The position numbers were made by a program, and so were the translations under genes. Positions 1,535 to 19,566 of a stretch of 21,306 nt of DNA are shown here, piece after piece (position 1 is the first letter of the stretch; each line of letters opens with the position of its first letter). The notes below the pieces were generated by a model. That model made no database searches, had not been told where the DNA came from, and saw only the letters and a program-made list of their open reading frames with translations. The DNA is from a virus: positions 1 to 21,306 of IMG/VR virus record IMGVR_UViG_3300036814_001729. One strand, given 5' to 3'.

Positions 1535-3262
1535 ATGTCATATAACGGTGAAAATTCAGTTGATTACACTAACAGTAATCCAGACTATTGGGCTAGCGTT
1601 AATTCATATTTCGAAAGCCATGGTGAAAACGATGTTGGAGAAACCGGCATATGGATTCCTAATTTAGAAAAACAAGGGGCGGAGTCTATTGCATTAGCAG
1701 CCTCTGCCGGTGGCGTTACGGCGGTTGGTGGAAGTAATTATGCTGGCGGTAGCAAGTCAGCAGATACTAGAACTTACGCCGATACTGGAGAGACCGAATC
1801 CTCTAGGGCTGAATATAGCATAACCAGGCCTATAACTCTAGCCTCTATATACAGGGGTGGTACAGATTACGAAACAACCTCTGCATCAGATCACTATGGT
1901 GGTGGTACGTCTCTGGGAGGAATGGGGAAACTTCCCCCTTCTTGGCAGGGGGTTTCGATAAGCGGCGGGAATGTTGTTGGGACTCCTGGGGCTAATTACT
2001 CGGCTGCTGGCGGAGATTACGCTGGTTTATTGTCAGCTGGTACCGCAGTGACGGCTGAATTACTCGATAATTTACTAGGGCCAAGAGATGGCGACGGCCT
2101 GAGGGTTAGAGGCACGTTTCCAACTCCCACCGGTTCAGCCATTACTGGCGCTGGAACCACCGTTGGAGCTGGCACCGACACGGACTTGGCAAGTTATCTT
2201 AATTTTGAAGGACACCACGCTGAATATGATGGTTCTCAGGCTCATTCCATAGATTATACTAATCAGAACCCAGCTTACTGGACAAATGTTATCAATTGGC
2301 ACGCTGCTAATGGTACTAATGCAATGGGAGAAACCGGTATATGGATACCTAACTTTGAAAAACAGGGGGCAGAGGCTATTGGTATAGCTGCACATCTTGG
2401 CGGAGTTAGAAAGGTACAGGGAAACAATTACCACCAAGCTGGTGGCACAGAATTAGCTCTCGAGTTGGCTTCTATCCATAGGGGCGGAACCGATATTGAT
2501 ACTGGCAGAGGAATGGGTAAGTTATCTGGAGACAAGTATGGAGCTAAACTACTAGGCGGATCTGTAGTTGGCGGACCCGGAACTGCTTACTCGGCTGCGG
2601 GCGGAGACTTCCCAGGTTTAAGTATAGCAGGATCTCCTGGGTCTTATGTATCAACCGGTATTGGAACCGGTGTCGGAGCTGGACCAGCTAAGGATTGGTC
2701 AGCTTATATGCCTTCAAACTTTGCTCAAGCTGAGAACGGTGGATTGCTTTATCAGCCTTGGGCGACGAATTACCCGGCTTCCGGGGTCATACCAGGGGTA
2801 GCTTCAGGAAGCGGCATGTTAGGAACCGGGGGGTCTGCTGCTGCTAGTGGCACGCCAGCCGTTACAAGAACCGCTTCTGGTACCTTTCCGGCTGCTACTG
2901 TAATTACTCCGACAACGGGTGCTACGGGAACAGTCTCCCCGGTTTCTGAAGGGGGGCATGACCCAACGGGTGGTGACATAGCTCACTCAGTTTCAACAAT
3001 GTCGTCAATGATGTCACACGGTTTGACAGCGCCGGCTCATCTGGGGGCGGTCGTTGGTGCTATGTTTAGTCCAATGACGTCAACAGCTGGAACTACTATA
3101 GCTCCCGATACCTATTCTGCAACGGCCTTGGCAACAGCGTTGAAAGGCATGGAACCAGATCCGGCAGAGGCGTCAACTAGTGCTGGTGCGTCATCAGGCT
3201 CATCTTCTGGTTCAGCAGGCAGTGACCCAGAAAGCGATTCCGAACATGGCGGATCAGGATAA
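1535..3262 (+). CDS. Large Gly/Ala/Ser-rich repeat protein, probable virion or fibre-like
   Basis: This 575-residue protein is dominated by Gly, Ala, Ser and Thr and has very few Lys, Arg or Cys. It has a diverged internal tandem duplication: residues about 8-228 and 238-397 share the block DYTN.NP.YW, the block GETGIWIPN.EKQGAE, LASI.RGGTD, GMGKL, YSAAGGD and a VGAG end. After the second copy comes a low-complexity region (VTRTASGTFPAATVITPTTG and a final Ser/Gly/Asp/Glu stretch SGSSSGSAGSDPESDSEHGG). There is no signal peptide or enzyme motif. Its place between a GNAT-like gene and virion genes suggests an extended structural, fibre or surface-display protein. I do not recognise the family. 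The spacer of 28 bases to the next gene holds AGGGG as ribosome-binding site. Confidence 0.7.
   Translation: MSYNGENSVDYTNSNPDYWASVNSYFESHGENDVGETGIWIPNLEKQGAESIALAASAGGVTAVGGSNYAGGSKSADTRTYADTGETESSRAEYSITRPITLASIYRGGTDYETTSASDHYGGGTSLGGMGKLPPSWQGVSISGGNVVGTPGANYSAAGGDYAGLLSAGTAVTAELLDNLLGPRDGDGLRVRGTFPTPTGSAITGAGTTVGAGTDTDLASYLNFEGHHAEYDGSQAHSIDYTNQNPAYWTNVINWHAANGTNAMGETGIWIPNFEKQGAEAIGIAAHLGGVRKVQGNNYHQAGGTELALELASIHRGGTDIDTGRGMGKLSGDKYGAKLLGGSVVGGPGTAYSAAGGDFPGLSIAGSPGSYVSTGIGTGVGAGPAKDWSAYMPSNFAQAENGGLLYQPWATNYPASGVIPGVASGSGMLGTGGSAAASGTPAVTRTASGTFPAATVITPTTGATGTVSPVSEGGHDPTGGDIAHSVSTMSSMMSHGLTAPAHLGAVVGAMFSPMTSTAGTTIAPDTYSATALATALKGMEPDPAEASTSAGASSGSSSGSAGSDPESDSEHGGSG
1556..2720 (+). 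repeat. Diverged tandem duplication inside the 575-residue gene
   Basis: Copy A spans about 1556-2212 and copy B about 2246-2720. Both encode the same ordered blocks (DYTN.NP.YW; GETGIWIPN.EKQGAE; GGV...GNY-type turn; LASI.RGGTD; GMGKL; GG.VVG.PG..YSAAGGD; VGAG...D..(A/S)Y). Copy A is longer by about 60 residues, from an insert after the Gly-rich turn and another near the LLGPRDGDGL segment. The DNA copies differ widely at third positions, so the duplication is old rather than recent. Confidence 0.8.
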
Positions 3263-3290
3263 ACATGATTAATTCAACAGGGGTAATCTA

Positions 3291-4055
3291 ATGGCAGGTG
3301 GAGCATCAACAAGAACCGAGCCCTGGGCAGAGCAGAAGCCTTATTTGCAGGCTGGTTTCGAACAAGCAGGAAATCTATTTAGAGAGGGGCCGGCGGCTTA
3401 TTACCCAAAAGAATCTCTTGCTGGGTTTGACCCTCTTCAGCTAAAGGCGCAGAAAGCAGCTGGTGAATATATAACAGGTCCTAGAGCAGCTTCACAGCAA
3501 GCTTTTGCTGAGAAACGATTGCAGACAGGGTTAGAAGGTAAGGTTGATACAGAAACTTTCAATCCTGTTATGACCGCCCTCTCTGATCAAATGAAGAGCC
3601 AACTAACTGGCAGTGTCTTGCCTGGTATTCGCCAGTCTATGGTCGAATATCAACCAGGAGGGTCCTCTAGGGGCGACCTGGTCCAATCTACGGCCATATC
3701 ATCGGCTAATCAACAGATGCTTAACAAGGCTGCTGAGATGTACGGTGGTGCGCACCAGGCTGCTCAAGAAAGGTCCACACAGTTCGCTCAAATGTATCCC
3801 TCTATTATGGGAGCTCCCTTGGGCATGTATGAAGCCTTGGGCGATGTCGGTGGCCAGAGAAGGGCGTTGAGTCAAGAGGCTATGAACCAAGATCAACTTA
3901 GGTATAACTACGATGCAAACAAAGACCAAGGAATGCTAGAGAATTATATGGGTATGATCAGCGGGGACTATGGCGGGACGTCAACAGAATCGCCAAGTGC
4001 TATATCTTCTATAGGTCAGATGGCCTCGCTTGCTAAAATGTTTGGCGCATTCTGA
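3291..4055 (+). CDS. Probable virion protein of marine podoviruses
   Basis: This 254-residue protein starts MAGGASTRTEPWAEQKPYLQ and continues FEQAGNLFREGP. A Gly/Ser/Thr start, then 'EPW..Q.PYL...F..A..L', is a pattern I associate with conserved virion-associated proteins encoded upstream of ejection proteins in marine podoviruses. The middle is helical and Gln/Ala-rich (SANQQMLNKAAEMYGGAHQAAQERS), with a short GGSSRGDL turn containing RGD. The C-terminus is Met/Ala-rich (SIGQMASLAKMFGAF). There is no signal peptide or catalytic motif. The gene is coupled to the next by TGATG. A role as an internal core or ejection-linked protein is inference from content and position. Confidence 0.6.
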   Translation: MAGGASTRTEPWAEQKPYLQAGFEQAGNLFREGPAAYYPKESLAGFDPLQLKAQKAAGEYITGPRAASQQAFAEKRLQTGLEGKVDTETFNPVMTALSDQMKSQLTGSVLPGIRQSMVEYQPGGSSRGDLVQSTAISSANQQMLNKAAEMYGGAHQAAQERSTQFAQMYPSIMGAPLGMYEALGDVGGQRRALSQEAMNQDQLRYNYDANKDQGMLENYMGMISGDYGGTSTESPSAISSIGQMASLAKMFGAF

Positions 4056-4387
4056 TGTCGTATCAGTTTGATGATGTATTTTATCAATTCCTTGAAGAAG
4101 ATGCTGACAGGAGAGAGAAAGCAAACTACAAACGTTTGTTTGAACAGTTCGGCGGCTCTTTGGATGTAACGAAGCCGCCAGCTCCTTTTACTGGCGGAAA
4201 TACAGGTGTAGCTATGCCAGAAAGAGGAGAACTAGCTGTTGGAGCTCCTATGGATGTTGGACAAGCAAACTTTAACCCTAACTCTGCCCCGCCCGTTCAG
4301 GTTGGTGGAGTTGGTGGGTATATGGGAAGAGATGATCGGTGGAAATCAATCATGAACTTTCCTGTTTACCCTTGGCAAAGAGGGTAA
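4055..4387 (+). CDS. Hypothetical late protein
   Basis: This 110-residue protein begins at an ATG that shares one base with the stop of the previous gene. The N-terminal 35 residues are charged and helical (FYQFLEEDADRREKANYKRLFEQFGG). The rest is Pro/Gly-rich and likely unstructured (TKPPAPFTGGNTG, NPNSAPPVQVGGVGGY). I do not recognise the family. Its position between two probable virion proteins and its tight coupling suggest a small structural or assembly factor. The next gene starts only three bases after its stop, with GAGGGTAATCT as possible ribosome-binding site. Confidence 0.55.
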   Translation: MSYQFDDVFYQFLEEDADRREKANYKRLFEQFGGSLDVTKPPAPFTGGNTGVAMPERGELAVGAPMDVGQANFNPNSAPPVQVGGVGGYMGRDDRWKSIMNFPVYPWQRG

Positions 4388-4390
4388 TCT

Positions 4391-5833
4391 ATGGGACAGT
4401 ACCTAGATGAATGGGACAAGAAGGAAAAGATATATTTTCAGAAGGTTATGGATCGATCTAAAAAGATTGGTGAACTTGATGTTATATCCGGAGGAAGCGA
4501 AGCTGGGGCGTTCACTTCCGGCGCCCTTAAAATGCTCAAAGATCAAAGGGCCAAAGTAGAAGACCGAGACGAAAGAGAGATGCTACAGCAAATGCTTGGC
4601 TCTCCAACGGCTAAGGATATGAGGCCCGGACTAACGAATATAACTGAAGGGCAAGGCTTGAACATGAATCAGTTTAGCACCATGTCTTCTGCCTTCGCTA
4701 AACCAACAGTGGATAACACTTGGCAAAGGTATCTAAGTGCTGCTCAGTCTCAGTGGTCTAACGCAGACGATAATTTAAGGAGCAGGATGCAGGGTCTAAA
4801 CTTTGTCGTCGAACAGGATGGTCAAAATTATTGGGATGAGAAGGCAATTATCAATCACCTGGCTGGCGAGTTATTCGCAGCCGAAAAGAGAAAAACAGAA
4901 TACCAACCAGCCTTTGGTGCAGCTTTTGGTAGGCAGTCGGGGACAACCACTGCGAAAGTTATCGGCGATGCTCTAAATGTTAGTAACCAAGAAGAATCTT
5001 TCCAATCTATAGAGAGAATAAATACAGCGTTGAAACTGTTAGATGACCCTACTGTCCAGACAGGTCCAACAGCTAAAACCAGGATGTATATTTCTAGATT
5101 CTTGTTGGATGCTTTTGGGGCTCCTCGTTTTAATCAGGACAACACTCTAGACAAGGCGGGCTCTATCACTCAGAGAAAGTGGATTGAAAAGGCTAGGAAA
5201 TCTTTGGCCGATCCTAATCTAGATATAGGCAAGATGGAGTTGTTTAATCAAATTTCTGATCACTTAGGAACGGAATATTTAAAGCTTACCAAGGGTGCTA
5301 TCAGTGATGTGGAGTTTAAGGCTTTCATGTCCATGGCCCCAACCCTTAGTAAAACCAAAGACGGAAACAGGGCCCTTCTTAAGATGCTGAGAAGGTTTTA
5401 CCAGAAAACAATGTGGAAATCTAATGCAACAAAAATATTTCTTAGGGAGGTTGCTCCTAATAAGGGACTAACCCCTGAGAATCCCAAATTCGGTATCGAG
5501 TATGCTATTTACATGAATGATCAGCTCAGTAAAAAGTGGAACTTTGATCCCAAGTCTGGCATCGGAGGCGTAGTAAAAAGAGAGGATGTCGATTTGCTTT
5601 TTGCTATTGACGAAGAAGAAGCTAACGCTGCTGGTAACGGAGGAATTCCAACGGTGGGTGGTTACTCTGTTATAGGAGAGGCTAATCCAGCGATGCAAAG
5701 AGACATGCGAGATCAGGTCGATTTTGACGAGCCCATCTGTGTTTATGATGAGGCCAGCGAGGCCTTAGTTTGTTATATAAGGAAAGATGGGATTGTTTAT
5801 ACCGTTAACAAAGATGGCGTGGGACAAAACTAA
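4391..5833 (+). CDS. Probable internal virion / DNA-ejection protein
   Basis: This 480-residue soluble protein is largely helical and highly charged, starting MGQYLDEWDKKEKIYFQKVM. It has no signal peptide, membrane segment or recognisable catalytic motif. The region near residues 170-330 has regular amphipathic helices (FQSIERINTALKLL, KMELFNQISDHLGTEYLKLT). The C-terminus is acidic with a beta-like end (EPICVYDEASEALVCYIRKDG). Long helical proteins of this sort, lying next to an even larger one near the end of the tail region, commonly are the ejectosome proteins of podoviruses. That role is inference from size, position and composition. Its stop overlaps the next start by one base (TAATG). 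Confidence 0.55.
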   Translation: MGQYLDEWDKKEKIYFQKVMDRSKKIGELDVISGGSEAGAFTSGALKMLKDQRAKVEDRDEREMLQQMLGSPTAKDMRPGLTNITEGQGLNMNQFSTMSSAFAKPTVDNTWQRYLSAAQSQWSNADDNLRSRMQGLNFVVEQDGQNYWDEKAIINHLAGELFAAEKRKTEYQPAFGAAFGRQSGTTTAKVIGDALNVSNQEESFQSIERINTALKLLDDPTVQTGPTAKTRMYISRFLLDAFGAPRFNQDNTLDKAGSITQRKWIEKARKSLADPNLDIGKMELFNQISDHLGTEYLKLTKGAISDVEFKAFMSMAPTLSKTKDGNRALLKMLRRFYQKTMWKSNATKIFLREVAPNKGLTPENPKFGIEYAIYMNDQLSKKWNFDPKSGIGGVVKREDVDLLFAIDEEEANAAGNGGIPTVGGYSVIGEANPAMQRDMRDQVDFDEPICVYDEASEALVCYIRKDGIVYTVNKDGVGQN

Positions 5834-8118
5834 TGGCTTCATTAAAAGAAAAACTTAAAGAAAGGCTAGACAAGGCCGCCGGTAATGCGGAGACAACGGG
5901 AAGATTAACAATAGAAGCCATGGATCAATCTGCTTTTGATCAACTGGGAAACACTGTGAACGGGTGGTGGGATGCTATTAACGATATAGCGACCGGCTCC
6001 AAAAGAACAGAGTTTCCTTCTATGCCAGAACTGTCGGAAGACGGTTTATTGAAAGCTGGTGGGGCGAAGATGGGTGAGTGGCAACCTGGTTCGACGGCCA
6101 TTCCTGGAATTGAAGAACCGGGCAAGTACGGCGATGGTTCTTTGCACCCGTATACTGCTGGAAGAATGACAACCGATGACGATTTTCAATTAGCTAACAT
6201 ATTAAAGGAAGCTGTTGGAGAAGAAAATGCTCAATTTACCAGAGATTCGTACGGAAACACCGTTGTTATTGTAGACGGTAAAGCATTCTATCTAAACAAG
6301 CCTGGCTATTCTGCTGTTGATCACGAAAGATTGGTTGGTCAGTTGTTATCTTTTGCTCCTATTAGTAAGTTTTTTAAATACGGAACGATGATAACCAAGA
6401 TGACCAAAGCCGCTCTTGGTGGCACTGCGGTTTCAACCGTCAGAGACGTAGCTTCTCTTGCTCTCGGTTCTAACGATTTGAATCCAGAAAGAGATGTGCT
6501 AACGGGGGCTCTTTTCGCCTTAGGAATTCCCGTTGGTAAAGGTTTAGCTTGGGGATCGAAGCAACTGTATGCAAGAATCGCTCCCTGGTTGCAGGGCAGA
6601 CATATCAGTCAGGCTGGTAAAGATGCATTGATTATGGCGGGATATGACGAAAGCGCAATTGCTGTTTTGGAATCTTCTTTAATCAGAGAATATAATAAAT
6701 TATCAAAACTGTATGGCACAGAGGTTGCTGCTACAAGGCTAGCAGACAATGCTCTACCCGAGAATCTGCGCATTCCCAAAACAACAGGAGAAATAACGGG
6801 TGATGTCGCTCAACAACAAACAGAAACCTTTCTTGAGTCCGGTGTCAAAGGCAGGGTGGCTCAAGATGTTGCTTCAGCGGCAAGAGATAGACAAACCATT
6901 GCCGTTCAAGAATCTCCAGAAGCTTTACTAAGCGAGATCGGAACTGGCGCTGGAAGCGTAGAAAGGGGAGTTCCCCTTGCTACCGCTCAAGCTAAAGCTT
7001 TTAACCTTAGATCGCAAGATAAAACAGCTTACGAATTAGCTTATTCTAATGCGGAAAAAGGTAGCACCTTTCTACCACCTGGTGAACAGCTTGCATTGAG
7101 AACCGCCGTTAATGAGCTGGGTCTGTTTCCGGAGACCGGGGGATGGACGAAGGCAATACAAAACTTCAACAAGCTGGTTGATGAACCTATTGCTATTGAA
7201 TCCGCTGGCGTTAATGTTGCGAAGTATTTTGACTGGAGGAGAGAAGTTTCAGCTGCTGCTAGCAGCCTTCCTTACGGTACAGAGAAAACAGTTTTAACCC
7301 ATGTTAAAAGACAATTTGATCTAGCTATAAACAGAATTATAGAGAAAGGTTATGTTTTAGGAGATCCTGGTACTATAAAGTGGTGGACAACGGCAGTTAA
7401 GCGTAGAGCTAAGTTCGGCAAAGATTGGCAAGCTAAGCAAGCCTGGAACGAAAACAAATTAATTTCTGACCTAACAGATAACGTTAGTGGTCAATTAAAG
7501 GTAGCTCCAGAAGAAGCCGCTAATTACGTTTTGAACGCTAATAACTTAGGCTTTATAAATAAGGGTGGATTAACGAAGGGTTTAAAAACCATAAAAGAAC
7601 GACTAGGCGAGCTGTCTCCGGAGTGGAAGGGCGTTGCTGATGAGGTGATGTTAAGATTAATTGATAACGCTCGAACCGTTACCAGGGACTTCCCAATGGG
7701 GGAATTCAAGGTTAAGGCTTTCGCTTCCGGTTGGGGAAAGTTAAAAAAGAATGCTCCGCTTATGAATCTATTGTTCTCTCCATCGGAACAGCGACTAGTT
7801 AATCATTTTGTTTTTGGCGGAATGAAGGCTGGTTCCAAGAGTCAATTTGCAGGAAACCCTCCTAACACAGCTATTCTAAAGATGTTGGGAAGACCTCTAC
7901 AAAGGTTAAACTTAACGGCTCCGTTTAAGGCGAGGGCTGCTTTTTCTGGTGAAGTACCGGTTCAGATTAGTCCGCAAGCTCAGACTGCAGCTCCTATAGC
8001 TGCAACACAGTTAGCTCCTGGTTTAGAACAAGAAACCAACTTAGGAGCTGGTTTGTTGGAAGGAACAACCTTGCCATTCAAAGCTGTCAAGGGATTGGTA
8101 GGCGGAATGCTGCAATGA
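5833..8118 (+). CDS. Large probable internal virion / ejection protein
   Basis: This 761-residue protein is the largest in the window. The N-terminus is a charged helix (MASLKEKLKERLDKAAGNAE). Residues about 115-165 carry a compact domain with GNTVVIVDGKAFYLNKPGYS followed by DHERLVGQLLSFAPISKFFK. Residues about 190-240 are Ala/Gly/Leu-rich and weakly hydrophobic (KMTKAALGGTAVSTVRDVAS; TGALFALGIPVGKGLAWG), which could insert in or cross a membrane during ejection. The rest is helical, with a basic C-terminal part. There is no lytic transglycosylase or peptidase motif that I can see. Size, position after another helical virion protein and before host-lysis-like genes point to an ejection/core protein. 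Its stop overlaps the next start (ATGA). Confidence 0.6.
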   Translation: MASLKEKLKERLDKAAGNAETTGRLTIEAMDQSAFDQLGNTVNGWWDAINDIATGSKRTEFPSMPELSEDGLLKAGGAKMGEWQPGSTAIPGIEEPGKYGDGSLHPYTAGRMTTDDDFQLANILKEAVGEENAQFTRDSYGNTVVIVDGKAFYLNKPGYSAVDHERLVGQLLSFAPISKFFKYGTMITKMTKAALGGTAVSTVRDVASLALGSNDLNPERDVLTGALFALGIPVGKGLAWGSKQLYARIAPWLQGRHISQAGKDALIMAGYDESAIAVLESSLIREYNKLSKLYGTEVAATRLADNALPENLRIPKTTGEITGDVAQQQTETFLESGVKGRVAQDVASAARDRQTIAVQESPEALLSEIGTGAGSVERGVPLATAQAKAFNLRSQDKTAYELAYSNAEKGSTFLPPGEQLALRTAVNELGLFPETGGWTKAIQNFNKLVDEPIAIESAGVNVAKYFDWRREVSAAASSLPYGTEKTVLTHVKRQFDLAINRIIEKGYVLGDPGTIKWWTTAVKRRAKFGKDWQAKQAWNENKLISDLTDNVSGQLKVAPEEAANYVLNANNLGFINKGGLTKGLKTIKERLGELSPEWKGVADEVMLRLIDNARTVTRDFPMGEFKVKAFASGWGKLKKNAPLMNLLFSPSEQRLVNHFVFGGMKAGSKSQFAGNPPNTAILKMLGRPLQRLNLTAPFKARAAFSGEVPVQISPQAQTAAPIAATQLAPGLEQETNLGAGLLEGTTLPFKAVKGLVGGMLQ

Positions 8119-8501
8119 GTCTCAAGATTGCTATCATTGCACTATGGGCCGTTTTTACATTCGTGGGCGAAGTGGATGCAACTCAGCCTTTCGTGCAAAT
8201 TATACCAATGAAAGTGTTATGCATAGAGGGTGGTCCAGAGTATCTGATACTAGAGTTGATGGAAAAGTATAACGAAGTTCCTGCTTATACAATGGAAATC
8301 TCTGTTGATAAACCTATTCCATTGTTTATGATCATCACTGAAAACAAAAACAACCCTTCGTCTACTATTATATTAGGCAATCCCAACCTTAACATGTCAT
8401 GTATTTTCATGACAGCAAAGGATGCTTTGTTACCAACCGAGGCAGAAAGTCGTCCAGCCAAACAGCCTGACCCCGAAGAGCAACCGAAGCTAGGAGTTTA
8501 A
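8115..8501 (+). CDS. Secreted small phage protein with signal peptide
   Basis: This 128-residue protein begins with MSLKIAIIALWAVFTFVGEV, then DA just before TQPF. That is a classical signal peptide with probable cleavage after VDA at residue 22. The mature part resembles a small family frequent in marine phages: 'MK.LC......ll.L..KY.E.P......' then 'LFMIITENKNN....II' and a Cys near 'MSCIFM'. It has two Cys in the mature part (C32 in KVLCIEG and the SCIFM Cys), which could form a disulfide in the periplasm. The tail is Pro/Glu-rich (AKQPDPEEQPKLGV). It overlaps its upstream neighbour by ATGA and is followed after one base by the holin-like gene. A periplasmic role in late infection or lysis is inference. 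Confidence 0.65.
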   Translation: MSLKIAIIALWAVFTFVGEVDATQPFVQIIPMKVLCIEGGPEYLILELMEKYNEVPAYTMEISVDKPIPLFMIITENKNNPSSTIILGNPNLNMSCIFMTAKDALLPTEAESRPAKQPDPEEQPKLGV

Positions 8502-8502
8502 T

Positions 8503-8775
8503 ATGGAAGAGCGTAGACAGAATGGTGGCTGGGCTGTGAGCAAGAGCCTTAGTGTATCACACTTACTTGGTACTATAGGGATTGCTGTTGGCTTCTTCAC
8601 CTATGTGACTGACATAGAGCAAGAGACGGTCGTTAATAAGATGGAAATCAAAAGCGTTAGTGAGCGACTTGATCGTTCTAATGCTAGATACTCAGAAGAG
8701 TTTACAGAGATAAAGGAAATGTTCAAACACTTGTCTGCTAAGATTGATCGAATGCTGCTGACGAATCCAAGATGA
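8503..8775 (+). CDS. Holin-like membrane protein with coiled-coil tail
   Basis: This 90-residue protein has a strong ribosome-binding site (AGGAG at 8491-8495). After a polar start there is one hydrophobic segment, LSVSHLLGTIGIAVGFFTYV (about residues 16-35). A long charged helix follows with heptad-like spacing (IEQETVVNKMEIKSVSERLD; FTEIKEMFKHLSAKIDRM), suggesting oligomerisation. One transmembrane helix plus a cytoplasmic coiled coil is typical of small phage holin-like or spanin-related membrane proteins placed near lysis genes. No endolysin is visible next to it, so the holin label rests only on topology and place. Its stop is followed directly by the next start (TGAATG). Confidence 0.55.
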   Translation: MEERRQNGGWAVSKSLSVSHLLGTIGIAVGFFTYVTDIEQETVVNKMEIKSVSERLDRSNARYSEEFTEIKEMFKHLSAKIDRMLLTNPR

Positions 8776-9078
8776 ATGAATATAACACCCGAAGCCGCAG
8801 AGAGAATAAAACAAACTCTGTCCGACACAGAGTATCTAAGGGTAGAGGTAAATGGTGGTGGTTGCAACGGATTCACCGTAGTCTTATCGAAGACCCCAGG
8901 GATAAGCGAGAACGATATATTACTGAACGACAAGATTATCCTAGATCCCACCTCGGAGGGGTATTTGTCTCTCGCGACACTGAACTGGATAGATGATCCT
9001 TTCGCACCAACTTTTAAATTTGACATCCCCAACACGAAGTCTTGTGGTTGTGGTAACTCTTTCACGCTTGAGGAATAG
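8776..9078 (+). CDS. A-type iron-sulfur cluster carrier (HesB/IscA/ErpA family)
   Basis: This 100-residue protein is close to the usual 105-115 of the family. The three cluster-binding cysteines are all present: C30 in VNGGGCNGF (family GGGCSGF) and C90/C92 in SCGCGNSF (family CGCGSSF). The C30-to-C90 spacing is 60, slightly shorter than in bacterial IscA/ErpA. The N-terminus ITPEAAERIKQTL matches the family helix, and DPFAPTFKFDIPN matches the 'F.f.NPN' segment before the last cysteines. These proteins bind a 2Fe-2S or 4Fe-4S cluster as a dimer and hand it to apo-proteins in the cytoplasm. It follows a holin-like gene and precedes a Pro-rich gene, so it is expressed with late genes, unlike the metabolic operon on the other strand. 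The start at 8776 was preferred over the out-of-frame ATG at 8772. Confidence 0.9.
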   Translation: MNITPEAAERIKQTLSDTEYLRVEVNGGGCNGFTVVLSKTPGISENDILLNDKIILDPTSEGYLSLATLNWIDDPFAPTFKFDIPNTKSCGCGNSFTLEE

Positions 9079-10434: not shown

Positions 10435-10946
10435 TTGCTTTGTATTTTCTGTAATAGTCTCAGCTCAAGCAGCTCCTGTATAGGAACAACCTTAGCAACA
10501 ATAACATTATCGCTTTTGTTGTTTATCTTTTCTGGATACTTTTCTTTGTTTTCTTCAAACCACTTCTTTAGCATCGTGAAGTTAGCTCTATAAATTTCTT
10601 TGGTTTTCAAGAAGGTATAGAGTAACACATCAGCTTTGCATGTATACATCCATCCCGACCGATCTCTTTTCTTGTCTGCCCACAAAACCAAGAACAAGTT
10701 GTTGTGTTTATTTTCTACTTCCGTCTTCAGCTCTATAACCTCCATTTGTTTGTTTGGCAGCTGAACAAAGATATCACCGTATTTTTGCAACTCTCTGCTT
10801 GTATCCTTGTTGAACTTGGCTTCTCCTATAGAGGGAAGTACAATATACCGCCCTCCAACAGAGATCTGTTTTATATAGGGCATCACTAATCTTCTGCCCG
10901 CCTCCTCCACAGATAAGTTCCTCTTGATTTCTTTCGTAATACTCAT
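10431..10946 (-). CDS. PD-(D/E)XK nuclease-like phage protein
   Basis: This 171-residue protein has a probable restriction-type nuclease core: D58 in KYGDIFVQL, then E72-x-K74 in MEVIELKTE, that is D-(13)-E-x-K. After this come LFLVLWADKKRDRSGWMYTC and KADVLLYTFL, matching a small phage family with 'LF.E.Ws....r.GW......D.L.Y.fl'. It has no HNH or GIY-YIG motif. It is the last gene of the minus-strand metabolic operon and overlaps nrdJ by four bases (ATGA), so the two are translated together. It could be a structure-specific nuclease or a resolvase-like enzyme in DNA metabolism; the substrate is unknown. The nuclease call is by motif and context and has not been checked by profile comparison. 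Confidence 0.6.
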   Translation of the reverse strand: MSITKEIKRNLSVEEAGRRLVMPYIKQISVGGRYIVLPSIGEAKFNKDTSRELQKYGDIFVQLPNKQMEVIELKTEVENKHNNLFLVLWADKKRDRSGWMYTCKADVLLYTFLKTKEIYRANFTMLKKWFEENKEKYPEKINNKSDNVIVAKVVPIQELLELRLLQKIQSN

Positions 10947-12829
10947 ATTTCACAAACTCCTGCAAAACAAGCTAACTCTTGGCTTGCTATCGTGTTGTCT
11001 TCGCTTTCTTCAACATCGTCCCATGATATATCTTTGCTTTTGGGGAAGCTCTTCCATTCATCGAAGGTAATTTCTGTAAACGGCGCTGATTCATAGATGT
11101 GTTGATCCTCGCTTTTAGGCAGAAAGCTTATCCCACTAAGTATATCGAAGTTAGTATAACACCACGCTCCGACCTCCATCCACTCTTCTTCGCCAACATA
11201 GATGGTACAGCTGGGTTTGTGTTCGCACCAATTCAACGCAAACTTTTTCCACACCTCCAGATGCTGGATAGCGGTAATAGATTCTTTAGTACGCGATCCT
11301 TTGGGAGAGCTCATTGGAAACATAAAAACAACGGCTTCATTGTTGTAGGGATCTACTTCATAAGGAATGTTAGCAGCCATGATGACTTCGTTTAGCGGGT
11401 CTTTCTTGTCTTGCCTAACTCGCCTGATGTAATACTTAGAAAAAGATGGGTGCAACCCAGAACCTGCTACGCCAGTCAGTTGACTAACGGTTCCGGAAGG
11501 TTTAACACAGGTAACAGCAGCTGACTGGTTAATTTGAAATAACTTAGCCCACTTCTTATTCTCTGTTACAGCTAATTGTTTCCAGTCTTGCAGCTTTTCT
11601 CCTGTAGCATCTACTAGGATGGGGCAATCAAACACTCCTGTGAAACTAACACCCAGCAACCTCTCTTCTTCTGCGTTGTTTCTCCATACAGCTCTAACGT
11701 AACGGAAATTTGTTAAGGCTGATTGCACAGTACCTAGAAAGGTTGCAATAATGATCTTTTCTTTTATGCTCTCTTCGGTATCTTCTGGTCGGATAACACA
11801 CTCGGTGAGATTGCAAACACCAGCCGATCTTAAAACTATTTCAGAACATGGGTTGCAACCAAACTCGTGATCCTTGTCTCTCCTCTCTGGCAGAAGATTC
11901 AAACAGGCCTTTCTATTGAAGATCCCTCTTTCTCCGCTCTTTGATTCATACAGGGCTGTCCACTCCCTCAAGAATATACCCATCTCGGGTTTTTCTGTGT
12001 AACAAACAGAGTTATTAGCTAACGCTCGCTGTCCATGATCTACCCACCACTGACCAGACTTGGCATATCTCATGCGTTCATCTGTTAAATTGCTTAAGCT
12101 TATCTCAGCCGCCCTTCTAACACCCCCGACTACGACGCTTTCTCCGTTCCAGCACATTAAATCATGACACTCTAAGCTATTGAGCTTTCTTCCTTGTGCT
12201 GCTTTAAAGGTTGAGATATAATAGGAAAACAATCTTTCCAAAGGTTCCGGACCAGAGGCTCGACCACCAAACATTTTTAATTTTGCACCTGCCGGACGTA
12301 CACGAGAATAATCTATACGAGGAATCATTCCTTGATAGAGTAAACTAACAAGTTCTCTTAAAGATTTTGCCCAACCAATCTTGCTATCGCTTACTATTAC
12401 CGTGGTTTCGCTTTCGTGAAACTCTTCAGCAATTTCGGGTAATTTATTTATATACTGTCGTTCAACACTGAAGCCAACGCCTGTTCCGCACAATAGCACG
12501 TACAGGTTTTCATCAAACACCCTGGGGTGATCAACAGCGATATAAGCGCAGTTGTATCCAGCCATGTTATCTCTCTCTAGGGCTGGACCAGCTGTCATCA
12601 TCGCTCTCATGGAAGGCATAACATCCATTTTTAATATTGCTAGCCTAGCCTTGTCCCACATTTTTTGATACTTGTGTTCTGCCCCATCGGACGAAAGTTC
12701 GAATAACTTAGAATACCTCATAAAGGTACAATATCTCTCAACAGTCTCTTCCCATGTCTCCCTTCTACCTTTGTTGTCTAGGTAACGAGCGTAACGACTT
12801 TTGTGTATAAACTTTTGATATTCATTCAT
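10943..12829 (-). CDS. nrdJ: Adenosylcobalamin-dependent (class II) ribonucleotide reductase, monomeric type
   Basis: This 628-residue enzyme reduces ribonucleotides to deoxyribonucleotides using a thiyl radical made with adenosylcobalamin, so it needs no oxygen and no second subunit. All key residues are visible: C94 (YNCAYIAVD) pairs with C339 (AGVCNL) as the redox disulfide; N326, C328 and E330 in CNPCSEI form the radical site. The 11-residue spacing C328-C339 equals that of the Lactobacillus leichmannii enzyme. C621 and C626 at the end (ACFAGVCEI) are the thioredoxin-reactive pair. KPSGT (443-447) is a substrate-phosphate loop. It is shorter than the 739-residue Lactobacillus protein. The leader before it can form a pseudoknot. 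The gene implies that the host makes or imports vitamin B12, as proposed for cobaviruses. Confidence 0.95.
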   Translation of the reverse strand: MNEYQKFIHKSRYARYLDNKGRRETWEETVERYCTFMRYSKLFELSSDGAEHKYQKMWDKARLAILKMDVMPSMRAMMTAGPALERDNMAGYNCAYIAVDHPRVFDENLYVLLCGTGVGFSVERQYINKLPEIAEEFHESETTVIVSDSKIGWAKSLRELVSLLYQGMIPRIDYSRVRPAGAKLKMFGGRASGPEPLERLFSYYISTFKAAQGRKLNSLECHDLMCWNGESVVVGGVRRAAEISLSNLTDERMRYAKSGQWWVDHGQRALANNSVCYTEKPEMGIFLREWTALYESKSGERGIFNRKACLNLLPERRDKDHEFGCNPCSEIVLRSAGVCNLTECVIRPEDTEESIKEKIIIATFLGTVQSALTNFRYVRAVWRNNAEEERLLGVSFTGVFDCPILVDATGEKLQDWKQLAVTENKKWAKLFQINQSAAVTCVKPSGTVSQLTGVAGSGLHPSFSKYYIRRVRQDKKDPLNEVIMAANIPYEVDPYNNEAVVFMFPMSSPKGSRTKESITAIQHLEVWKKFALNWCEHKPSCTIYVGEEEWMEVGAWCYTNFDILSGISFLPKSEDQHIYESAPFTEITFDEWKSFPKSKDISWDDVEESEDNTIASQELACFAGVCEI

Positions 12830-15560: not shown

Positions 15561-16037
15561 CTACTTTGTTCCTCCGTACTTCCAGTCGCATTTCTCTTCA
15601 GAGGTAGAACCGAATCCGCCTACTCCTCGAGCGCTTGCTTTACGGAACAGGTCTGCTTCGTCTTTTTCTATTATCCTTATCGTAGGAACGGGCAGCAACA
15701 ATCCCTGCATTATCTTCATACCCGGAAAGATCTTTGTTATGCTTTCTCCGAGATTAATAACGTGAAGATGTATTTCACCTTGATACCCCTCATCTATAAC
15801 ACACGCTCCAACAACGAGCTGCTCCTTGGTTGCAATACCGCTTTTATTAAACTGGACAATAGCATAACCAGAAGGGATTTCCATCTTTACTCCGGATGGG
15901 ATTAATACATCTTCTCCGAAATACAAGTCAATCTCTTCAAAATCGTAAGGTACGAAAAAGTCGATACCTGCGTCTGTATCATGTCCCTTCTCTGGAGACT
16001 TCACTCTCCTAGTTTTACAGAAATTAAGTAATTGCAT
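15561..16037 (-). CDS. dut: Trimeric dUTP diphosphatase
   Basis: This 158-residue protein has all five motifs of trimeric dUTPases in order: I, DAGIDFFVP (22-30); II, FNKSGIATK (63-71, family RSGLA); III, GACVIDEGYQGEI (77-89), with the catalytic Asp D82 and the uracil-stacking Tyr Y85; IV, TKIFPGMKIMQG (101-112, family RIAQL.. slightly changed); V, ARGVGGFGST (136-145), the Gly-rich P-loop-like tail closing the site. It hydrolyses dUTP to dUMP and PPi, lowering uracil in DNA and feeding the thymidylate-synthase-type enzyme encoded two genes upstream. Length is typical. It overlaps the kinase-UDG gene by 14 bases and has AAAGGGAG as ribosome-binding site. Confidence 0.95.
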   Translation of the reverse strand: MQLLNFCKTRRVKSPEKGHDTDAGIDFFVPYDFEEIDLYFGEDVLIPSGVKMEIPSGYAIVQFNKSGIATKEQLVVGACVIDEGYQGEIHLHVINLGESITKIFPGMKIMQGLLLPVPTIRIIEKDEADLFRKASARGVGGFGSTSEEKCDWKYGGTK

Positions 16038-16917
16038 CTGTAGCTCCCTTTAGTGCCGACACAAAAGAATAAGAACTATTATAATTAAACCTCTTCCAAA
16101 ATTGGGGATGTGGAAAAATCTCATCTGGTACTACACCAACACCTTTCAAATACTTTTCAGCTTCTCTGCCCAACGCAAAGATTTTAGAGGGCTCTAGAAG
16201 ATCCATATAACATGGGTCTATCTTGTTGCCATCATGGGTGAAAGAATTGGCCCAGTAAAGTTTATCTTCTGGGATGTTAGCTTCGTCCATTAAACCAGAT
16301 AACCAAATAGAACTTCCGTTCTTTGCCGCAAAAGGAATTTCGCACTGCTCTATAAGGTTACACCTGTCGGCAACTATAAGTACGTTTCCTTGTTGAAAGT
16401 GACCAGAACCGGGCCCTAAATCTTCGGATGGAGAACAGTATTCTAACTGAGAAAACAATTCTACCGTCGAGTCTCTAGTCCAGTCGTAATAGACAACGGG
16501 CAAATGAGTTATAAGCTTTTGGTAGGCATAATATCCAGTTGTCCATTCTGCCAGATCTTTGATTACTTCGTATTCCCGATTTGCTTCCCAACTCTTTCTT
16601 GCAGCCTCTATCCCTGGGTCACAGAGGATGACCACACCCCTCTTTGAAAGACAAGCTCTATCAAACGCTCGATGCCTTAACCATTTCTCTGTGAAGCCCC
16701 GTAGAATTGGACCGTAAACCTGCTCCGAGAGGTGGGACAAGCGATCATAGATCATATTATCTGATCCGCTTTTAACCATCTTAATTTCTTCATAGAATCC
16801 AAACTTTCTACCGGAGTGCGAGTATCCGACCCCGTCTCTGAAAGTAAACATCCTGGATAGCTGCGCAGATAGGTAACTTTTACCTGTACCATCCATCCCT
16901 TCGATTATAAAACTCAT
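16024..16917 (-). CDS. Fusion of dNMP (thymidylate) kinase-like and UDG-fold domains
   Basis: Residues 1-150 look like a thymidylate/deoxynucleoside-monophosphate kinase: MSFIIEGMDGTGKS (P-loop 6-14), the DR motif YDRLSHLSEQVYGP (57-70) and a RGVVILCD strand. Residues about 168-285 match a uracil-DNA-glycosylase fold of phage type: GHFQQGNVLIVADRCN, then IPFAAKNGSSIWLSGLM, KLYWANSFTHDG, LEPSKIFALGREAEKYL and PHPQFWKRFNYN. The 'HPQ(Y/F)WKRF' end and 'P.k..ALG..A...L' are typical of this phage family. The first motif is VADRCN rather than the GE.PG of active glycosylases. The two activities in one chain suggest handling of a modified pyrimidine nucleotide or base. It lies between the thymidylate-synthase-like gene and dut, overlapping both. 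Confidence 0.75.
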   Translation of the reverse strand: MSFIIEGMDGTGKSYLSAQLSRMFTFRDGVGYSHSGRKFGFYEEIKMVKSGSDNMIYDRLSHLSEQVYGPILRGFTEKWLRHRAFDRACLSKRGVVILCDPGIEAARKSWEANREYEVIKDLAEWTTGYYAYQKLITHLPVVYYDWTRDSTVELFSQLEYCSPSEDLGPGSGHFQQGNVLIVADRCNLIEQCEIPFAAKNGSSIWLSGLMDEANIPEDKLYWANSFTHDGNKIDPCYMDLLEPSKIFALGREAEKYLKGVGVVPDEIFPHPQFWKRFNYNSSYSFVSALKGATDAIT

Positions 16918-17633
16918 AGTATGAGTGCCTCTCTGTTTAAATATTCTTCAATTTTCTGCACATCTCTGGTAAAGACATGGGCTGAATCGATATGATGAGT
17001 GTAATCTCCAACAACACAATCTAACTCTTTAGCTATATATTCCTGAAGTCTGCACATATTGTAAACGTCATACCCCATAACTGACCACACGTTTTGACTT
17101 CTCATGTGGGTGATCGCATGCAACCGACCTCTTCTGATAAAGTAATGAGCTCCGATAGTGCAAGGATATTCCATCGATGTTTTAGAACCCAGTATTATAT
17201 TATCTTCCTTCAGTAGAATACTTAAGTAAGCTCTTCGTGAGTCAGGATTGCGTCTCAGCTCATCTATTATCACCGGTAGCTGCTCCTTAACCTTCCACCC
17301 GTAAGAAGAACTAAAGTTTTCTGGCAGTCCGGTACCATCAACAAAGATCTTTGCGTATGGTTGCAGCTTGTTAATCTTCTCAGACAGGTCAGTATCGCCC
17401 GACATAATCCAATCAAAGAAAAGCTCGCAATGCTCTACGTTCAGCCTCTTAGATGTGAAGGCTATCTTATCCTCGTCCTCCGTCTCCCAAGGACAAAGCC
17501 TAAAACCAACACTAATATTTTCATGCGTTTTCTTCGGCTTAGACTCGGGATAGAGAACTAACTGATTCAGCAACCACCTTTCTGCTGTGTCGTAACGATC
17601 TGCTAATTTAAAATTTTCTAAAAATAGAGACAT
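16914..17633 (-). CDS. Thymidylate-synthase-family enzyme, possible pyrimidine hydroxymethylase
   Basis: This 239-residue protein has the family signatures: ELFFDWIMSGDTDL (70-83, with E70 matching the catalytic Glu), the phosphate-binding PDSRRAYLSI (R133, R134), the nucleophile C158 in EYPCTIG, HMRSQNVW (176-183), YDVYNMCRLQEYIAKEL (188-204) and THHIDSAHVF (212-221). D189 stands where thymidylate synthases have the Asn that reads uracil (E. coli N177). In T4 dCMP hydroxymethylase this position is Asp. F221 replaces the Tyr that contacts the sugar. So the enzyme may hydroxymethylate dCMP or another pyrimidine instead of making dTMP. It is short for ThyA (264). It overlaps the methyltransferase gene by 26 bases. 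Substrate is inference from a by-eye alignment. Confidence 0.8.
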   Translation of the reverse strand: MSLFLENFKLADRYDTAERWLLNQLVLYPESKPKKTHENISVGFRLCPWETEDEDKIAFTSKRLNVEHCELFFDWIMSGDTDLSEKINKLQPYAKIFVDGTGLPENFSSSYGWKVKEQLPVIIDELRRNPDSRRAYLSILLKEDNIILGSKTSMEYPCTIGAHYFIRRGRLHAITHMRSQNVWSVMGYDVYNMCRLQEYIAKELDCVVGDYTHHIDSAHVFTRDVQKIEEYLNREALIL

Positions 17634-18474
17634 GATGATACTTTCCCTGGTAGTTGAACGCTTGGAACTCGAACCCGGCTCGAGATGTCCAAGAATTAAA
17701 ACTGCTTATAGCTTCTTTAACGTCGTCAATCTGCATAGCAGCACCCGATTCAGTTAAATCATTCAGCCTGAGATCTAGGAAGGGATCTCTACTTTCAACC
17801 ACCAATAAACACCCTCCCTTTTTTAACAACATGCTGCTAACATCTAGTATTGCATTGCGTTCGTATTCTCCTTTCAGATGCAGCACCTCTGACAGGAGAA
17901 CGACATCGTGTTCTTTGCAGCTCTCCAGGCTTTTTCTGACAGTAGACGGGTCCCAAAGCAAGTCGAGCTCTACTACAAATCTCCTCTCTTTAGGGATTTC
18001 GATACCCGGCCACTTGATATTGATAACTCCCGGCCTGTCTATCATGGTTACTGTAGAGTCGACGAACGTTTCTAAGAAAGATTTAGCATATTCTCCGTCT
18101 CCACAACACACATCCGCCAAAGAACTTCCGTTACCAAAAGACTCCAAACCATTGCCATCTAAACAGTTAACAACATCTTGCCAAAAACTAGCTCTCTCGT
18201 AATGGAAGGTTTCGGTGAGACCTCTTAATAAAAGATCGTAATTATCTCTCCCCCCTTTCGATCCAGAAGAGAAGTTCTCGTTGTAGGTGAACATGCTGTA
18301 AAGCTTGCGTAGCTCTTCTATATTATCTAGCGCGCCGAACTCTTCCAAACAAGCACAAATCTTTTTGAATTTTTTAGCGTGTCTGATAGAGTGCTTATAA
18401 ATGAAATACTCGTGTATCAGATGGGTTAGGTATGGAGCATTTAATAACGTTGATGTACTCATTGAATGTGACAT
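17608..18474 (-). CDS. Class I SAM-dependent methyltransferase, O-methyltransferase-like
   Basis: This 288-residue protein has a helical N-terminal part (1-115) with LTHLIHEYFIYKHSIRHAKK, and a Rossmann methyltransferase domain after it. Motif I is SLADVCCGDGEYAKSFLETF (118-137), the acidic residue of motif II is D146 in VTMIDRPGVI, and motif IV is HDVVLLSEVLHLKGEY (189-204), followed by the LLKKGGCLLVVE strand. A 'DxPxVI'-type second motif and the order helical part plus Rossmann domain resemble the O-methyltransferase group (Methyltransf_2-like). It lacks DPPY/NPPY and PC motifs, so it is not an ordinary adenine or cytosine DNA methylase. As first gene of the nucleotide-modification block it may methylate a hydroxylated base or nucleotide; this is inference. 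GAGGA lies 12 bases before the chosen ATG. Confidence 0.72.
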   Translation of the reverse strand: MSHSMSTSTLLNAPYLTHLIHEYFIYKHSIRHAKKFKKICACLEEFGALDNIEELRKLYSMFTYNENFSSGSKGGRDNYDLLLRGLTETFHYERASFWQDVVNCLDGNGLESFGNGSSLADVCCGDGEYAKSFLETFVDSTVTMIDRPGVINIKWPGIEIPKERRFVVELDLLWDPSTVRKSLESCKEHDVVLLSEVLHLKGEYERNAILDVSSMLLKKGGCLLVVESRDPFLDLRLNDLTESGAAMQIDDVKEAISSFNSWTSRAGFEFQAFNYQGKYHHVSIFRKF

Positions 18475-18481
18475 TTTTAGG

Positions 18482-18817
18482 TTATTCCTCTATTGCCATG
18501 TCTCTAAGAAAGGTTGTGTTTAATCTGTCTTCTTCCCAGTTTAATATTCTTGTGGCGCCGGCTTTATCCAGAGACCAAACCAAGTCTTTTGTCCATCGAT
18601 TAGGCGCGAACCCGCTCTTCACTAGTATGACGTCCTGTTTCTGCGCCCATGCATAATTGAACTTAATTGGATTACCCTCTATCCACACGGTAAGCTTGCT
18701 ATGCGGCATTCTAGCGTAGGTTTCTTCGGCAGCGTGGCCATAGCAGCAGAATATTGTTCTGCTTTGGGGAGATCCGCCGCCATACCAGAACTTTTCCTTA
18801 GTCCTGTTGTGGCTCAT
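18482..18817 (-). CDS. Hypothetical protein of the early operon
   Basis: The frame is open from 18925, but the start at 18817 (MSHNRTKEKFWYGGG) has a good GAGGGG site nine bases upstream and removes most of the overlap with the previous gene, leaving 20 bases. The resulting 111-residue protein has a Gly-rich turn GGGSPQSRTIFCCYG, then AAEETYARMPHSKLTVWIEG, NYAWAQKQDVILVKSGF and RWTKDLVWSLDKAGATRILN. The alternating strands and helices suggest a small alpha/beta fold. I do not recognise a family. It ends seven bases before the methyltransferase start, so it is part of the same transcript. Confidence 0.6.
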   Translation of the reverse strand: MSHNRTKEKFWYGGGSPQSRTIFCCYGHAAEETYARMPHSKLTVWIEGNPIKFNYAWAQKQDVILVKSGFAPNRWTKDLVWSLDKAGATRILNWEEDRLNTTFLRDMAIEE

Positions 18818-19079
18818 TTCCGCCAACCCCTCTGGAAACCTCATCCGCGTACTGTTCGAGAGTTTGTCCATATCTTTCTTTAAACCACTGATTCCATGTT
18901 TTGGACTTATTGGGAACGAGTTCATTCCTCTTCAGCCAGATCGATTTGGCCCCTGTTCTCTTGATTCGTTCTTGAATTTTTTCCGATGATTCTTTCATTG
19001 GGTGATTTCTGTATGGCCATGGATTTATCGAAGAGACAGTTTTCAGCGGGAGCTGTGGGTCGAACTCTCCACCCTCCAT
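18798..19079 (-). CDS. Hypothetical small protein, start uncertain
   Basis: The frame gives 93 residues from 19079, or 66 from the ATG at 18998 (MKESSEKIQERIKRTGAKSI). The C-terminal part, KTWNQWFKERYGQTLEQYAD then EVSRGVGG, looks like a real folded segment. The first 27 residues overlap the sensible part of the longer gene beginning at 19566, so the later start is more likely. Even then 77 bases would overlap that gene in another frame. No ribosome-binding site is clear before either start. The stop overlaps the next gene's start by 20 bases. Function unknown. Confidence 0.5.
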   Translation of the reverse strand: MEGGEFDPQLPLKTVSSINPWPYRNHPMKESSEKIQERIKRTGAKSIWLKRNELVPNKSKTWNQWFKERYGQTLEQYADEVSRGVGGNEPQQD

Positions 19080-19566
19080 TGGGATCTTCTTTCAAAAGGT
19101 GACTTAACTTAAGAGACCAAATCTCTTCCCTTCCTGGGTTTGGTATTGTTTCGTGATGAAACTTACCAAGATCACTGATGGCTGGTTTTCTGGGTCTCCA
19201 ATAGGGGTTAATCTTTTTCTGCTTAGTTCTAGGTTGCATAAGAGCAATGCGTTCCCAGCTTGGTCCCATGTTTCTCCAAGACATGGTTTCTATCGACTTG
19301 TGCTCTTCTCTCGTAGGTAGATCCCACGACTGCACAGTTATGTAGCTTTCCCATGCTCTAGCTAATGCTTGTTGATGGTTGCTTGGAGATAGTGAGGACA
19401 AGTTGTCTATTCTCCCTATGTAATAGAGTATCCTGGAAAGCGCCCATTCATAGTCCGAAATACCGACTCGTCTGTATTGCAACATGGCTCTTTTTGCTAT
19501 GTTGGCTATGATTGTTAGCAGCCTCTCTATTGATGAAGGAGGCTTCTTCTTGTGATTTTTTTGCAT
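18922..19566 (-). CDS. Hypothetical basic protein; possibly the body of a frameshifted gene
   Basis: The frame gives 214 residues from the ATG at 19566. The first 80 are helical and basic (SIERLLTIIANIAKRAMLQY and RVGISDYEWALSRILYYIGR). The rest is Trp/Pro/Lys-rich (MSWRNMGPSWERIALMQPRT; INPYWRPRKPAISDLGKFHH). The ATG at 19566 lacks a convincing ribosome-binding site and lies within a run of seven A (19556-19562 on this strand). Upstream, a better-initiated frame begins at 19633 and would join this one if one A of the run were skipped. The last 50 residues overlap the next gene in another frame and look less ordered. I do not recognise a family. Confidence 0.55.
   Translation of the reverse strand: MQKNHKKKPPSSIERLLTIIANIAKRAMLQYRRVGISDYEWALSRILYYIGRIDNLSSLSPSNHQQALARAWESYITVQSWDLPTREEHKSIETMSWRNMGPSWERIALMQPRTKQKKINPYWRPRKPAISDLGKFHHETIPNPGREEIWSLKLSHLLKEDPNGGWRVRPTAPAENCLFDKSMAIQKSPNERIIGKNSRTNQENRGQIDLAEEE

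Follow-up and report, generated by a model that had tools for sequence, protein, structure and literature searches.

Which base do four overlapping genes on the minus strand of this viral fragment act on, and what would they turn it into? The window, meaning the whole stretch of DNA analyzed, is a 21,306-nt fragment (IMG/VR record IMGVR_UViG_3300036814_001729), in which positions 15561-18474 encode, in this order, a methyltransferase (MT), a thymidylate synthase (TS)-like enzyme, a kinase joined to a uracil-DNA glycosylase (UDG)-like part, and a dUTPase (Table 1). The four open reading frames described in the earlier note were found at these positions, overlapping by 26 bases (MT/TS-like), 4 bases (TS-like/kinase-UDG), and 14 bases (kinase-UDG/dUTPase). 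A second contig, L002, carries the block with the same order and overlaps at a protein identity of 80-85%. Each gene, including the UDG part, has a pN/pS of 0.12-0.16 relative to L002, i.e., the block is under purifying selection, and these values together with the retained order and overlaps argue against a chance arrangement. The protein encoded directly upstream, for which family searches returned no match, has a comparable pN/pS of 0.17. Very probably, the four genes supply the phage with a modified cytosine for its DNA. Our preferred reading, to which we assign a probability of roughly 0.45, is a route from dCMP via 5-hydroxy-dCMP and its diphosphate into DNA, with the MT O-methylating the 5-hydroxyl group to yield 5-methoxycytosine.

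Table 1. Coordinates of the features discussed, given as window positions.
Feature	Position	Strand	Basis
Trimeric-type dUTPase, 158 aa	15561..16037	-	PF00692 (E=9e-16), five motifs present
Kinase and UDG-like protein, 297 aa	16024-16917	-	ORF, AlphaFold model
Family 4 UDG-like domain, residues 176-297	16027..16392	-	Foldseek, Pfam in homologues, alignment
dNMP (TMP-type) kinase domain, residues 1-165	16423..16917	-	P-loop GMDGTGKS, TMP kinase fold
TS-superfamily enzyme, 5-hydroxy-dCMP synthase (RB69p048) branch, 239 aa	16914..17633	-	Identity to RB69p048, clade support
Asp189 codon (ThyA N177 position), predicted cytosine recognition	17067..17069	-	Alignments
MRSQN motif, residues 177-181, common to 5-hydroxy-dCMP synthases	17091..17105	-	Alignment
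Cys158 codon, catalytic Cys (ThyA C146)	17160..17162	-	Alignment
Class I SAM-dependent methyltransferase, Methyltransf_2-like with its own N-terminal part, 288 aa	17608..18474	-	PF00891, 1fp2
His199 codon, candidate general base of the MT	17878..17880	-	Weak 1fp2 alignment
Protein of no assigned family, directly upstream in the same operon	18482..18925	-	81% identity in L002

The identity of the base can be read from the TS-like protein, which matches PF00303 (E=5.6e-15, 55.6 bits against a cut-off of 24.3) and has the features of the TS superfamily (C158, the Arg phosphate ligands R133/R134, R178). Its D189 aligns with N177 of ThyA and with the Asp of T4 gp42, as the earlier note had claimed, and also with the Asp of MilA. 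Because Asp occupies the position of ThyA Asn177, cytosine is well supported by the sequence as the target of the cassette. Features of thymidylate synthase sensu stricto are absent, with D189 standing for Asn177 and T159 for His147 after the Cys. Asp189 also rules out a hydroxymethyluracil reading of the SPO1 type. The parallel once drawn with SPO1 was wrong, as SPO1 gp29 has Asn at the ThyA 177 position; it and M6 gp58, both dUMP hydroxymethylases, belong to the same superfamily but differ by this Asn177 and hence act on uracil.

The chemistry at C5 is likely to be hydroxylation of dCMP and not hydroxymethylation, judging from residues and phylogeny. The closest characterized relative is RB69p048 (41% identity versus 28% for T4 gp42), itself 99.4% identical to PDB 9iqu, and RB69-type enzymes are named 5-hodCMP synthases in a secondary source (PMC13390438). 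Five residues (E143/Q168/N169/V173/F209) are all common to the window enzyme and the RB69-type branch, whereas the corresponding sites of hydroxymethylases hold D, S or N, D, G/A/T, and Y. Within the MRSQN motif, N181 takes the place of the folate-binding Asp169 of ThyA, which is kept in T4 gp42, SPO1 gp29, and M6. The tree places the TS-like enzyme and RB69p048 in one clade (support 100/99.8 and 100/99.9), such that the T4-type hydroxymethylation proposed before probably does not apply. The window enzyme branches deeply, as sister to the RB69 group, and may nevertheless have another activity.

Among the competing explanations, the one that survives best, albeit unlikely, is a T4-like 5-hydroxymethylcytosine cassette, in which the TS-like enzyme would form hmdCMP and the MT would O-methylate the hydroxymethyl group. 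It would account for D189 and for the homology to T4 gp42, both enzymes sharing the catalytic Cys as well as the Asp typical of dCMP-acting members, and for the scheme shared with the T4 pathway (gp1 kinase, gp56 dCTPase, glucosyltransferases), where the monophosphate is modified before a kinase acts. Relatives of the window kinase moreover adjoin hydroxymethylase-type TS genes with the folate Asp kept, and the AU test did not reject a grouping of the TS-like enzyme with T4 gp42 and Xp15 (p=0.115). The RB69-type residues, including Asn for the folate Asp, and the grouping with RB69p048 speak against it; in further difference from T4, neither a dCTPase nor a glucosyltransferase was seen within the window.

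Slightly less probable again is a 5-hydroxycytosine decorated with sugar as in RB69, the glycosyltransferase gene then lying in genome sequence beyond the contig and the MT serving a different purpose. PMC13390438 describes glycosylated 5-hydroxycytosine in Mosigvirus, and the RB69_047 gene (phrog_3891) adjoins the TS gene in all 23 of 23 T4-like loci of the same TS branch. With the arabinosyl-hydroxycytosine cluster of RB69/Mosigvirus the window shares the TS branch with its five signature residues and a similar length of the enzyme, as well as a dNMP kinase gene adjoining the TS gene. However, neither phrog_3891 nor the sugar genes of this cluster were found in the window, where an O-methyltransferase-like gene and the kinase with its UDG-like part stand instead; nor does the window derive from a T4-like phage. 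Relatives of RB69_047 were absent among the operon proteins tested (the upstream 147-aa and 214-aa proteins and the MT), and no glycosyltransferase match was obtained among the window proteins searched. As the contig is a 21-kb fragment, other tailoring genes may be encoded elsewhere in the genome; when a helicase was used as query to find longer relatives of the phage, the known contig alone came back.

Under the 5-methoxycytosine reading, the TS-like enzyme would hydroxylate dCMP at C5 and the kinase would phosphorylate the hydroxylated product to the diphosphate, on its way into phage DNA. The proposed fusion of this kinase to a UDG was borne out by an AlphaFold model of high confidence (pLDDT 90) with a TMP kinase-like N-terminal and a family 4 UDG-like C-terminal half; as modeled, a UDG-fold domain follows a nucleoside-monophosphate kinase in one polypeptide. 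The kinase domain aligned with YorR (3kb2) at Z 15.5 over 159 residues and matched phrog_761 thymidylate kinase (7e-9). As a second structural comparison gave kinase matches only, to the first domain, the assignment of the UDG half rests on Foldseek (4zby, E=1.8e-4; 1ui1, 4.6e-4; 1l9g, 9.4e-4) and on Pfam PF03167 (UDG) in homologues (E=2.4e-4 in the related cassette L010, 0.032 in L002). The two halves thus have the folds of YorR-type or bacterial TMP kinases and of family 4 uracil-DNA glycosylases, but the window protein fuses both and departs from the latter in motif A, which reads ADRCN compared with GE or GD in most relatives (family consensus GE.../GEAPG...), while motif B (HPQFWKRF) keeps HP. 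This alteration of motif A makes glycosylase activity uncertain; we can only guess that the UDG-fold part might recognize or repair the modified base, e.g., deaminated 5-hydroxyuracil. The dUTPase would keep dUTP from DNA and supply dUMP; in its slot, a pyrophosphohydrolase of the PRA-PH/MazG type is found in most related cassettes.

The MT carries the final step of the proposed route, in which it would methylate the 5-hydroxyl group, on the nucleotide or in DNA, by analogy in the role of the arabinosyltransferases of RB69-type phages. In agreement with the earlier description as an O-methyltransferase-type enzyme, it lacks DNA-methylase motifs of the DPPY, PC, and FGG types and has no DNA-methylase Pfam match, ruling out an N4, N6, or C5 DNA methyltransferase, and its L002 homologue exceeds the PF00891 cut-off (25.5 bits against 22.3), the window protein itself scoring 16.2 bits. 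Its profile aligns weakly (E=0.33) with isoflavone O-methyltransferase 1fp2 over the SAM site and the catalytic-His region, where VLH of the window protein meets ILH of 1fp2. O-methylation is suggested by genomic context and one conserved His. Among PDB sequences, the MT matched flavodoxin best (E 0.06-0.15), in the region where the SAM site begins, and we regard these matches as chance; the AlphaFold model, built from two input sequences, had a pLDDT of 39.5, too low to assign a fold. It is improbable, but conceivable for an orphan whose substrate is unreadable from its sequence and whose relatives, among phages, viral contigs, and genome contigs, were confined to L002 and L003, that cytosine is modified while the MT acts elsewhere (on tRNA, a host metabolite, or a protein) and sits in the operon by chance. 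The MT/TS overlap kept in L002 argues against such a coincidence, as does the finding that 25 of 42 related cassettes have an MT of a different family at their upstream end.

These cassettes belong to a widespread phage family of kinase-UDG fusions, and the gene-neighbor comparison corroborated the suspected modified-pyrimidine cassette, all 39 of 39 TS genes adjoining kinase-UDG homologues having the cytosine-type Asp. Related loci carry a PRA-PH/MazG pyrophosphohydrolase (34/42), a dCMP deaminase (30/42), and a methyltransferase (25/42); relatives lacking the MT can have other tailoring genes, namely a T4-type alpha-glucosyltransferase (L051, 8.6e-29), a PLP-enzyme (L045), or an NTP-transferase (L010 and L022). 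Asp177 TS, PRA-PH, and dCMP deaminase were also associated with cytosine-modified contigs by MetaGPA (PMC8670742). Members of the AXL3-type cassette are Stenotrophomonas phage AXL3, Pseudoxanthomonas phage PW916, and ~30 IMG/VR phages. They share with the window the kinase-UDG fusion (27% identity over the full length), an Asp-type TS, an NTP pyrophosphatase, and a SAM methyltransferase first in the block, but their TS is of the hydroxymethylase kind with the folate Asp kept, their MT belongs to another family, and a dCMP deaminase and PRA-PH stand where the window has a dUTPase. The AXL3-type MT occurs in only four distinct phages of the collection, all with the kinase-UDG cassette. AXL3 DNA resists 35 of 37 restriction enzymes, the two that cut having A/T-only sites (PMC7504290). 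Ordinary nucleotide metabolism boosting dTTP supply, with a thymidylate synthase and a dTMP kinase as the annotations of homologues and the nearby dUTPase and RNR would have it, is very improbable given the Asp at position 177, the Thr after the catalytic Cys, the separate ThyX in relatives such as AXL3 and L011, and the resistance of AXL3 DNA to enzymes with G/C sites.

A wider proposal, more doubtful than the 5-methoxycytosine route for this phage, is that 5-methoxycytosine replaces some or all cytosine through a TS-superfamily hydroxylase, a Methyltransf_2-type MT, and a kinase with a UDG-fold reader, and that capping by methyltransferases instead of sugars is a general route in the wider family of kinase-UDG cassettes. 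In the literature collection searched, no paper linked 5-methoxycytosine or 5-methoxymethylcytosine to phage DNA. To our knowledge, the caps described on the hydroxyl of modified cytosines are sugars or a carbamoyl group; we know of no ether-capped 5-hydroxycytosine in DNA and of no earlier report combining a hydroxyl with a methyl cap. If true, the methyl ether would extend these caps by a new, compact type, and the resulting new base in DNA, with enzymes of its own, would be of use for sequencing chemistry and for studies of type IV restriction. The kinase-UDG fusion in turn is a marker for dozens of uncharacterized cytosine-modification cassettes and ties the previously unexplained restriction resistance of AXL3 to specific genes. 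Phages evade restriction and CRISPR through altered cytosine, and the modified cytosine proposed here could likewise hide this phage from bacterial defences.

In the viral contig of 21,306 bases, a DnaB-like helicase gene comes immediately after the four-gene block described in the earlier note as overlapping (see table). The gene order and overlaps of the block recur identically in contig L002 (IMGVR 3300022693_001205). Comparison of the two contigs yielded a pN/pS of 0.12 both for the methyltransferase (MT) and for the kinase protein, whose UDG part taken separately gave 0.14; the thymidylate synthase-like (TS-like) gene stood at 0.14 and the dUTPase at 0.16, with synonymous sites near saturation (pS 0.62-0.78). 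The four genes are real and under selection. Directly upstream of MT, two conserved operon proteins of unassigned family are encoded (18482-18925 and 18922-19566, both minus). Elsewhere, the window carries a 575-aa protein in the virion gene region (1535-3262, plus) with the internal duplication DYTNxNPxYW...GETGIWIPNxEKQGAE, a 100-aa protein (phrog_17776; 8776-9078, plus) resembling by eye an iron-sulphur A-type scaffold (IscA/HesB) with conserved cysteines present, and a ribonucleotide reductase (10943-12829, minus; phrog_367, 7e-157), whose B12-dependent insertion-domain match lies slightly under the Pfam cut-off.

Coordinates of the block genes in the window and of cassette genes in two compared phages
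Feature	Position	Strand	Remark
MT	17608-18474	minus	first gene in transcription order
TS-like	16914-17633	minus	second; 26-base overlap with MT
Kinase + UDG-like	16024-16917	minus	third; 4-base overlap with TS-like
dUTPase	15561-16037	minus	fourth; 14-base overlap with kinase + UDG-like
L051 (IMG/VR phage) small kinase	5992-6489		cassette with Asp-type TS
L051 Asp-type TS	6446-7285		
AXL3 gp31 (L004)	7596-8420		Methyltransf_23-type methyltransferase

The TS-like protein matches PF00303 (5.6e-15), and alignments identify C158 as the catalytic Cys and place D189 at ThyA N177, as the earlier note had it. N177D shifts TS towards dCMP, as PMC8670742 reviews, and the same paper shows that position 177, with Asp, is among the two positions most associated with cytosine-modified contigs. 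Asp occupies this position in all 39 TS genes found in kinase-homologue loci. Cytosine is thus very probably the target base; as no dCTPase was found in the 21,306-base window, its replacement in the phage DNA may be partial.

The best PDB-sequence matches of the TS-like protein (9iqu and 9iqc, 7.5e-36) are 99.4% identical, over the compared part, to RB69p048 of Mosigvirus, a group in which a TS-superfamily 5-hodCMP synthase makes 5-hydroxy-dCMP at the mononucleotide stage and arabinosylation comes afterwards (PMC13390438). The window enzyme shares 41% identity with RB69p048 over 174 residues and 28% with T4 gp42 over 132. At ThyA positions 143, 168, 169, 173 and 209, it carries E, Q, N, V and F like RB69p048 and its T4-like relatives (Y209 in one of them), whereas these positions are D, S or N, D, G/A/T and Y in the hydroxymethylase-kind enzymes T4 gp42, SPO1, M6, Xp15 and those of the AXL3 type. 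Position 58 was misaligned for the window rows in this signature-residue alignment; the Glu (E70) is invariant in alignment A1. Asp169 binds folate in TS, and its loss in the window enzyme and RB69p048 would fit a reaction without one-carbon-unit transfer. Maximum-likelihood trees joined the window and L002 to the RB69-type branch (support 100/99.8 and 100/99.9). Constraining the window to the AXL3 type gave p-AU 0.049; grouping with T4/Xp15 was not formally rejected (p-AU 0.115), T4 gp42 being a very long branch in these trees. We put hydroxylation, not hydroxymethylation, at a probability of roughly 0.65.

The combination of dNMP-kinase and UDG-like domains in one gene, likewise proposed earlier, was borne out by an AlphaFold model (mean pLDDT 90.4, 33 sequences), in which residues 1-172 resemble TMP-type kinases (YorR 3kb2, Z 15.5, rmsd 3.5, 159 residues), by Foldseek, which also retrieved family 4 UDGs (4zby, 1.8e-4; 1ui1; 1l9g), and by Pfam UDG matches in the homologues of contigs L010 (2.4e-4) and L002 (0.032). 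Some kinase-family members (about 165-220 aa) lack the UDG half, which is therefore not essential for the kinase. Since the window protein retains HPQFWKRF and carries ADRCN where the family motif has GE..., glycosylase activity is only a candidate.

The kinase-UDG family is widespread, with 43 IMG/VR loci in addition to the phages AXL3, PW916 and ctUtU524. TS accompanies the kinase in 39 of 42 loci, a PRA-PH/MazG-type pyrophosphohydrolase in 34 (the AXL3 enzyme is a PRA-PH protein, 1.5e-14) and dCMP deaminase in 30; on cytosine-modified contigs, TS, PRA-PH and dCMP deaminase form a network with a carbamoyltransferase as decorator (PMC8670742). The AXL3-type methyltransferase is present in 25 of 42 IMG/VR kinase loci. 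Of the 50,697 records of the phage collection, five, representing four phages, match it at E<=1e-10, all inside the cassette. A methyltransferase is thus a frequent partner. AXL3 possesses a separate ThyX-type gene, and of 37 enzymes tried only TasI and Tru1I, both with A/T-only sites, cut its DNA (PMC7504290); ThyX adjoins the Asp-type TS in contig L011. The Methyltransf_23-type family, that of AXL3 gp31, may be what methyl-caps hydroxymethylcytosine and makes AXL3 resistant to restriction. A T4-type DNA alpha-glucosyltransferase gene (PF11440, 8.6e-29; 7282-8526, plus) adjoining kinase and TS in L051, which also encodes a dUTPase, a PLP-enzyme gene in L045 and NTP-transferase genes in L010 and L022 are expected decorators of hydroxylated cytosine. 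The L045 cassette (2367-5427), devoid of methyltransferase, has upstream an SGNH-like gene, one unassigned gene and the PLP-enzyme (PALP) gene, possibly for another hypermodification of hydroxymethylcytosine. In L010, the kinase-UDG/TS cassette has genes for Radical SAM/SPASM protein and NTP-transferase as neighbours (1826-3488).

The window MT occupies the upstream end of its block like the AXL3-type methyltransferase but looks unrelated. Its SAM-site motif is DVCCGDGEYA...MIDRPGV, and its sequence contains no DNA-methylase motif, in agreement with the earlier note. The O-methyltransferase type claimed there held in part: the L002 copy passes the PF00891 cut-off, but the window copy falls below it, and its segment VVLLSEVLHLKGEYERNAIL..LLKKGGCLLVVES aligns with isoflavone O-methyltransferase, ILH histidine included, albeit at E=0.33. 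In T4-like loci with the RB69-type TS branch, the RB69_047 gene (phrog_3891), a candidate arabinosyltransferase, is a neighbour in 23/23 cases and a kinase in 22/23. At the compared locus L009:14598-15498 (minus), RB69_047 and RB69_046 match consecutive stretches of this one family, which suggests that in RB69 a single gene has been divided. No RB69_047 relative was found among the window operon proteins tested. The simplest reading of these sequences is that MT would substitute for the sugar transferase, capping the 5-hydroxyl of the modified cytosine; given a cytosine target and hydroxylation, the chances that the product is O-methylated are about even.
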